NCBI GenBank assembly: GCA_025354405.1 | Contig: JANXMY010000082.1 | Location: 1 to 64,000, forward strand | Source: Armatimonadota bacterium | GTDB taxonomy: Bacteria > Armatimonadota > Armatimonadia > Armatimonadales > Capsulimonadaceae | Reading direction: 5' to 3' | Length of the DNA stretch: 64,000 nucleotides | In this document: positions 12,943 to 23,893 of the stretch, one piece after another | Position numbering within the stretch: the stretch's first letter is position 1 | Layout of the letters: every line of letters begins with the position of its first letter | Position numbers and translations under genes: made by a program | Notes under the pieces: model-generated | Told to the model about the DNA's origin: nothing | Seen by the model: the letters and a program-made list of their open reading frames with translations, nothing else | Database searches by the model: none

Positions 12943-13174
12943 GCCCAATGGCACGAAACTCCATACAAATTGAAGATGAAATCCGCACTCAGCCGCACGT
13001 CACCGGAACAGGGAGGTCGGCTGAAAAATTCCATTTTTCATACGAGCCAATGCCTCCTCGGTAAACCAAAATCGTATGTTCTGGCACGGACTTAGTAACG
13101 CTTGATTGCACTTCTAGCGATCCAGATGTGGAATATCAGCTCCGAGTTTAGCACGCCTAAATATATATGCATAA
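12943..13174. other. Intergenic region upstream of thi promoter
   Basis: No gene or RNA recognised on either strand. The right end (13168-13174, TGCATAA) is the left copy of the 7-bp duplication that flanks the MITE-like element. Confidence 0.4.
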
Positions 13175-13420
13175 CTGATGTTGCGCAAGGCTTTCGGAAC
13201 CCACCCCACAACATGCTGCGACCCTCCCGTCCCTGCTCGCAAGGCCTCGGCAGCGGGTACAACGGGAGGGTTTGCGGGAGTGCAGCCGCAGGGTTTTATC
13301 TTCTTGATAAGGCATCCAGACTATAGGCAGAACTTCATTTCCACCACAGGCTTACCCTCCCGTATCGGGAGGGTCTCAGCTTGTTGCGGGGTGGGTTCCG
13401 AAAGCCTTGCGTAACATCAG
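13175..13420. mobile_element. MITE-like palindromic element, copy A
   Basis: 246 bp with imperfect terminal inverted repeats of about 46 bp (CTGATGTTGCGCAAGG... and ...CCTTGCGTAACATCAG). It is flanked by TGCATAA on both sides (13168-13174 and 13421-13427), a likely target-site duplication. The core, including GGGTTTTATCTTCTTGATAA, is shared with copy B at 23615-23829. Copy A has about 30 extra bases in its left sub-terminal hairpin. It has no credible gene; short frames inside it are not protein-like. Confidence 0.85.
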
Positions 13421-13583
13421 TGCATAAGTAAACGGGGATTTTTCGTTAGCCCCGAAGGGGCTTTCTCTGAATAGCCTGACCTTTGTGGGCCGGGGTTAAA
13501 TGCATGGAAACATATGCGCTGCCTAAATAGTCAGCACGTTGACGACGCGGAGAGTGCTCTGAGCGGTGTATAATAGACTCCCT
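13421..13583. other. Intergenic region upstream of priA
   Basis: Contains a small hairpin AGCCCC-GAA-GGGGCT followed by TTCT (13455-13475), a possible weak terminator, and the priA -10 box. Nothing else recognised. Confidence 0.4.
13569..13574 (+). promoter_or_regulatory. -10 box of priA
   Basis: TATAAT ends 9 nt before the priA ATG at 13584. Start of transcription would be about 13580, leaving an almost leaderless mRNA. No good -35 at 17 bp. Confidence 0.6.
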
Positions 13584-22881: not shown

Positions 22882-23595
22882 TTAAGGCTGTTTCAACTGC
22901 AAATTCCAGGTCTGGCCGAACTGGGCTATATTTTGATTGACCACATGTCCGTCACCCATCAACTCATTGTAGCGTTTCTGGCTAACCAGAAATCCGCCGT
23001 GCCACGAACCATTTCCGTCCATCAGGACATTGACGTCCGAGCCTTCGTGCATCGCTCCATTTGGGCCGGGACTGTAGGCAACCAGGCTGCCGTAGCGTGT
23101 CCCAAGCAGCGCGATCTCCGTACGATACAGGTAAGATGTCCCCCGCTTACCAAAGGCCGTTGGTGTCATATCCAGCGGGATACCTGCCCCGTTATAGGCA
23201 CTGACATCCAGCTCTGTGTAACCACTATCCGAAGGACAGTGCCAGATCTCGGGGCTATGAATATAAGGCTGGAGAATTCCCTGCAGCGGCGGCATCGTTT
23301 GTACCTGGGCAAAATATGGCGATGCCGTCCAGATATTCGGGATCGTATCCGTGTCCGATGGGTCATTCCCCGCCGGATACAGATCATCATAGTCTTCCGC
23401 ATACAATCCGACTGCCAGCCCGATCTGCCGCAAGTTAGAGACACATACCGTTTGCCGCGCTTTGCCGCGCACGGTGAAAAAGACCGGCAGAAGTATTGCC
23501 GTCAGCAGGGAGATAATTGCCACAACAACGAGCAATTCAATCAGCGTAAATCCAGCGTTAGAGACGAAAGTTCGAAGTAGTGGCGTTTTTCTCAT
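22882..23595 (-). CDS. Type II pseudopilin (H-X9-DG type)
   Basis: A 237-residue exported protein with the class III leader [20 protein letters not shown] near residues 14-33, then [20 protein letters not shown], and [13 protein letters not shown] near the end. It is expected to be processed by a prepilin peptidase and assembled in or anchored to the envelope. It is adjacent to the amidohydrolase gene with no gap, though no functional link is evident. Repeat copy B lies about 20 bp upstream of its start. Confidence 0.85.
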
Positions 23596-23614
23596 AAGAC
23601 ATTTTTCTAACTAA

Positions 23615-23829
23615 TTGATGTCACGCAAGGTTTTCAGAACCCACCCCGCAGCAAGCTGCGGCCCTCCCGATACGGGAGGATTTGCGGGAGTGCAGTCGCA
23701 GGGTTTTATCTTCTTGATAAGGCATCCGAACAAAAGGCAGAACTTCATTCCCACCACAGGCTCCCCTCCCGTATCGGGAGGGGCGCAGCTTGCTGCGGAG
23801 TGGGTTCTGAAAACCTTGCGTGACATCAA
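23615..23829. mobile_element. MITE-like palindromic element, copy B
   Basis: 215 bp with nearly perfect 46-bp terminal inverted repeats (one mismatch), TTGATGTCACGCAAGG... to ...CCTTGCGTGACATCAA. Inner hairpins CCCTCCCG-ATA-CGGGAGG lie at both sub-ends. Flanks are TAACTAA (23608-23614) and CAACTAA (23830-23836), a likely 7-bp target duplication with one change. The core matches copy A (13175-13420) over most of its length. No credible gene inside. Confidence 0.88.
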
Positions 23830-23893
23830 CAACTAAATCACCATTGACATACGGCGGCGGTAGAGAAAACGTTTCATCCAATTTACGTCAACA

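Follow-up and report, generated by a model that had tools for sequence, protein, structure and literature searches.

A family of palindromic MITEs in an Armatimonadota genome, probably mobilised in trans by a CTGATG-ended clade of NCBI 'IS701_2' transposases

Introduction

Two long palindromes lie 10 kb apart in a 64,000-nucleotide stretch of contig JANXMY010000082.1, part of a 3.6-Mb Armatimonadota draft genome of 233 contigs (G000), and the question they raise is what kind of element they are and which enzyme moved them. The whole stretch is referred to here as the window, and the two palindromes as copies A and B. An earlier note, made from the sequence of the window, had described them as a new MITE-like family with 46-bp inverted repeats and 7-bp target duplications, and could not name the transposase family.

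Results

Structure of copies A and B

Both copies were confirmed in the window at the positions given in Table 1. Each is short, non-coding and bounded by terminal inverted repeats, and no orf of 100 or more amino acids was found inside either. The flanking heptamers are those that the earlier note had read, and recomputing the pairing of the copy B arms returned its value of 45 of the 46 outer positions; the copy forms one long stem that extends to about 64 pairs, with z = -19.5 relative to shuffled sequences. The arms of copy A match at 52 of 56 positions. The two cores share 90% identity over about 158 bp, and the 31 bp extra in copy A are a sub-hairpin inserted within one inner hairpin. 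GC-rich sub-hairpins like it recur in the inner hairpin loop of several other copies (C59, C185:101.6k, C118:9581, C4, C58:92009 and C92). Directly to the right of copy A, at 13421–13520, is another dispersed repeat, which matches at least six contigs of the sister species G001.

The proximity of copy B to a pseudopilin gene also holds, the left edge of the element and the start codon being 19 bp apart. A promoter scan around copy B found none; the copy may affect expression of the pseudopilin.

Table 1. Coordinates of the elements and neighbouring features (window positions unless a contig is named).
Feature	Position	Strand	Remarks
MITE copy A, 246 bp	13175..13420	+	ends CTGATGTTGCGCAAGG / CTGATGTTACGCAAGG
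Copy A left target duplication, 7 bp	13168..13174	+	TGCATAA
Copy A right target duplication, 7 bp	13421..13427	+	TGCATAA, exact match
Copy A outer terminal inverted repeat, left	13175..13190	+	
Copy A outer terminal inverted repeat, right	13405..13420	-	
Extra sub-hairpin, CCCTGCTCGCAAGGCCTCGGCAGCGGG-type, in left inner hairpin loop of copy A	13230..13260	+	absent from copy B; from alignment
DUF1559-type pseudopilin gene	22882..23595	-	Pfam N_methyl and DUF1559
MITE copy B, 215 bp	23615..23829	+	TTGATGTCACGCAAGG at both ends
Copy B left target duplication, 7 bp	23608..23614	+	TAACTAA
Copy B right target duplication, 7 bp	23830..23836	+	CAACTAA, 6/7 match
Copy B outer terminal inverted repeat, left	23615..23630	+	
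Copy B outer terminal inverted repeat, right	23814..23829	-	
Own-genome MITEs with the same outer ends and unrelated interior (examples)	C26, C128, C146, C185:101304		
Ladders on one or both sides, 18–32 bp period (L101, L103, L023, L102)	G000 C113:6977-7070; C148:3613-3903; C44:8395-8448; C1:195-700		

Copy number, range and subfamilies

A search of the genome with copy B as the query returned 103 matches, and, with at most one mismatch allowed, there are 147 occurrences of the arm motif GAACCCACCCCGCA, against none for a reversed-pattern control. Clustering of the listed positions gives about 64 loci, so that the sharing of ends and core reported for two copies stands while the number does not. 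Among 31 relatives, matches are present only in G000 itself and in its genus mate G001. A search for the exact 24-base motif across about 85,000 named species located it in one Armatimonadetes MAG alone (isolate 341R_concoct_144), where the elements and their flanks are those of G001, and the arm motif has no match in viral contigs.

Two subfamilies can be recognised. Members of subfamily 1 are about 88–90% identical to copy B and are seen in G000 only; those of subfamily 2 are about 72% identical, have a different core, are present in both G000 and G001, and often have decayed ends, recognisable CTGATG ends being missing from many of them.

Outer ends and target-site duplications

The functional ends are the outer 13–16 bp, CTGATGTTACGCA-RGG. 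The outer 16 bp, CTGATGTTACGCARGG, are common to other MITE families of the same genome that have unrelated interiors (Table 1), and the same outer ends are found on MITEs of G001; unrelated interiors beneath shared ends are the signature of one transposase in common. Of the '46-bp inverted repeats' of the earlier note, only the outer 13–16 bp or so are common to the candidate helper element described below, and the arm inside them is family-specific. A G001 family of roughly 250 bp has these outer ends (C19:3928-4180, C71:3156-3408, C213:2551-2803 and C250:6711-6958), and its C71 member is flanked by an exact 7-bp duplication, TCAAGAA. At C26:198-639 of G000, a long-armed MITE either encloses another MITE end of this type or has recombined with one, in a nested arrangement.

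Target duplication was examined in 27 elements with both ends, by comparing true pairs of 5' and 3' flanks with shuffled pairs. With 7-base flanks, true pairs average an identity of 0.603 and shuffled ones 0.479 (P = 5e-5, permutation), and nine pairs match at six or more of seven positions where 1.0 is expected, with fewer than five of seven matching in about half of the pairs. There is no signal at flank lengths of 4–6 and a marginal one at 8 and 9 (P about 0.06). The targets have the consensus TNANTNA. The duplications that the earlier note had read from two copies are thus borne out at 7 bp when the flanks of further copies are aligned.

A candidate helper transposase

Two pairs of these ends, each 1.15 kb apart, are present in G004, a genome of the same family. 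One pair bounds an intact insertion sequence (C208:1-1155; ends CTGATGTTACGCAGAC/CTGATGTTACGCGGGC) encoding a 360-aa DDE transposase, and in the second the transposase is interrupted by a stop. The intact protein scores 325.5 bits (E = 4e-97) against NCBIfam NF049921 ('transpos_IS701_2', IS701 family), above the curated cut-off of 250 bits, and also matches Pfam DDE_5 and DDE_Tnp_1.

Six relatives, carried on plasmids in other phyla, encode transposases 47–50% identical to that of G004, and all have ends of the CTGA..TTACGCA form. Five of the six (from Thiothrix, Stanieria, Cyanobacterium, Acinetobacter schindleri and one Polaromonas) begin with CTGATGTTACGCA, and the sixth, from another Polaromonas, with CTGACCTTACGCA; exact 7-bp duplications border three of the six (TTACTAA, TATTTAA and TTATTTA). 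In a tree of transposases, the G004 protein and the six plasmid proteins form a single clade (100/100), outside which are ISAba11, on a long branch whose exact place is unsure, and proteins of G001, G005, G022 and G029, all of them from elements with TAGG-type ends. In each of the 12 cases examined, the type of end agrees with the transposase clade.

No NF049921-type transposase was found in G000 by protein or profile search of its fragmented draft of 233 contigs, which may miss insertion sequences, and the only intact one in G001 has different ends, TAGGAGTTACGCAG. The helper is therefore inferred from relatives. An autonomous partner that has these outer ends was found in G004 and on plasmids but not in the genome that carries the copies, and what the earlier note had sought, a transposase gene between the same 46-bp ends, is matched in both the same-family genome and the distant plasmids by the outer ends only.

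Empty and shared sites in the sister species

The genes flanking copy B on either side have syntenic counterparts in G001 (79–80% identity), where the gap between them is 64 bp, against about 290 in G000, and alignment shows a clean empty site. Copy A is likewise absent from G001, and the region there holds other sequence; this region includes an apparent MITE of G001's own. The copies are thus numerous, dispersed and variable between relatives. C20:55860, an old and decayed copy without ends, is shared with G001 at an orthologous site, so that subfamily 2 is older than the split of the two species and not every copy is recent. The earlier note had named two results that would count against it, confinement to fixed orthologous sites and the lack of flanking duplications at more copies; neither was obtained, the B site being empty and the duplications significant.

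Co-variation of the arms and ladders of arm units

In 16 copies with arms that allow gap-free alignment, there are 24 cases in which both arms carry the same non-consensus base, where 7.9 would be expected (P = 5e-5); L034 and L129, which had been included in an earlier arm test, are excluded. The nine full-ended copies taken alone are marginal, with 6 paired changes against 2.2 expected (P = 0.06). This pattern is consistent with correction through a hairpin in which one arm is the template for the other; descent from a master copy whose arms were symmetric can add to it, and selection on pairing may also be a source. Several subfamily-2 copies have tandem ladders of the arm unit GGAACCCACCCCGCAG with a short spacer (Table 1), and in that at C148 the two arms have similar spacers; the ladders sit on older copies. 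We put forward, tentatively and as rather less than an even chance, that hairpin-templated copying shapes the arms, with mutations passing between them and units multiplying into ladders, independently of the transposase.

Perfectly inverted unique flanks surround the palindrome at three contig ends, L129 (C173:34375-34594), L034 (C130:1-468) and L051 (G001 C37:1-300), and are probably assembly fold-backs.

Discussion

We conclude, with a probability of about 0.9, that the repeats are MITEs mobilised in trans by the CTGATG-ended clade of NCBI 'IS701_2', a reading supported together by the number of loci, the 7-bp duplications, the partner transposase and the empty B site.

Several features of these palindromes are found in other kinds of repeat. 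High copy number, strong palindromy, a frequently intergenic position and some tandem or adjacent pairs are what would be expected of a REP/BIME-like family moved by a RAYT (Y1 HUH, REP-associated) transposase, but REPs are described as units of 20–40 bp with a GTAG or CGTC tag at one end (PMC3733652), and two-ended elements of 215–246 bp do not fit them in size or structure; together with the 7-bp duplications, which contradict it, and the conserved DDE-type ends, this makes such an origin very improbable. A conserved regulatory RNA or transcription-terminating hairpin at fixed sites would account for the strong folding energy, the terminator-like matches inside the element, the co-variation of arms within copies and the one copy at an orthologous site in the sister species. 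That the B site is empty there, that unrelated genes adjoin A and B, and that target duplications are present all argue against it, and we regard it as very improbable. Rfam matches to miRNA precursor families fall far below gathering scores and are best read as artefacts of long hairpins.

A third alternative would make the repeats MITEs of the ISAba11-type clade, with ends TAGGACTTACGC, which is still encoded in the sister species. This clade belongs to the same broad IS701-like superfamily, a TTACGCA-like stretch is common to both types of end, and ISAba11, which has a related transposase and a similar size, is also reported to yield direct repeats. These are of 5 bp, however (PMC7885321), its ends are TAGGACTTACGCA, and it falls in another clade of the tree. 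The outermost bases, CTGATG against TAGGACT, do not match, the MITE ends being CTGATGTT and not of the TAGGACTT type; as ends track the transposase clade so consistently, we give this assignment hardly any credence.

The CTGATG-ended NF049921 insertion sequences (Polaromonas, Acinetobacter schindleri, Stanieria and Thiothrix plasmids) resemble the MITEs in their outer ends and in 7-bp duplications of the TNANTNA type, whereas they are 1.1 kb long and encode a transposase; beyond the outer ends there is no obvious common sequence. Classical IS701 likewise has a DDE enzyme, and NCBI gives the partner transposase the IS701 name, but the classical elements have 4-bp direct repeats, lengths of 1400–1550 bp and a usually incomplete YREK motif (De Palmenaer et al. 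2008; PMC2266710). In the partner element the repeats are 7 bp, the length is 1.15 kb, and Y-2-R-3-E-6-K reads complete in P0001, a G004-type transposase. Given the split in the tree and the different repeat lengths of ISAba11 and IS701, the partner clade is best named by NF049921 membership, CTGATG ends and 7-bp duplications, and not as IS701 or ISAba11 proper. MITEAba12 and ISAba12 (PMC6382973) follow the same logic, a bacterial MITE being tied to its helper by shared ends and duplication length, but there the helper is a different one and co-resident, the MITE is 113 bp, and the duplications are 9 bp.

Under mobilisation by the CTGATG-ended clade, the transposase would bind at the outer 16 bp or so (AACTGATGTTACGCARGG), excise the element and insert it at AT-rich 7-bp targets (TNANTNA), which would then be duplicated; movement in trans would thus be of the cut-and-paste kind. 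The long palindromic arms inside the ends would be unnecessary for recognition, since other MITE families are without such arms. The helper would once have been present in the lineage and since lost, or else is missing from the assembly; as no such transposase was found in G000, the copies are probably orphaned, cross-mobilised MITEs.

Literature searches on the end sequence and on MITEs of Armatimonadetes found no paper. The family is new, and the kind of element is a known one; the new points are the helper clade, the empty site, the co-variation of the arms and the outer ends that several MITE families have in common. Several orphan MITE families of a little-studied phylum are thereby given a helper transposase clade, with its ends and 7-bp target rule, and the group filed as 'IS701' in databases gains a sharper signature of ends and duplication. 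The co-varying arms and ladders constitute a natural copy series for studying the correction and expansion of long palindromes in bacterial chromosomes.
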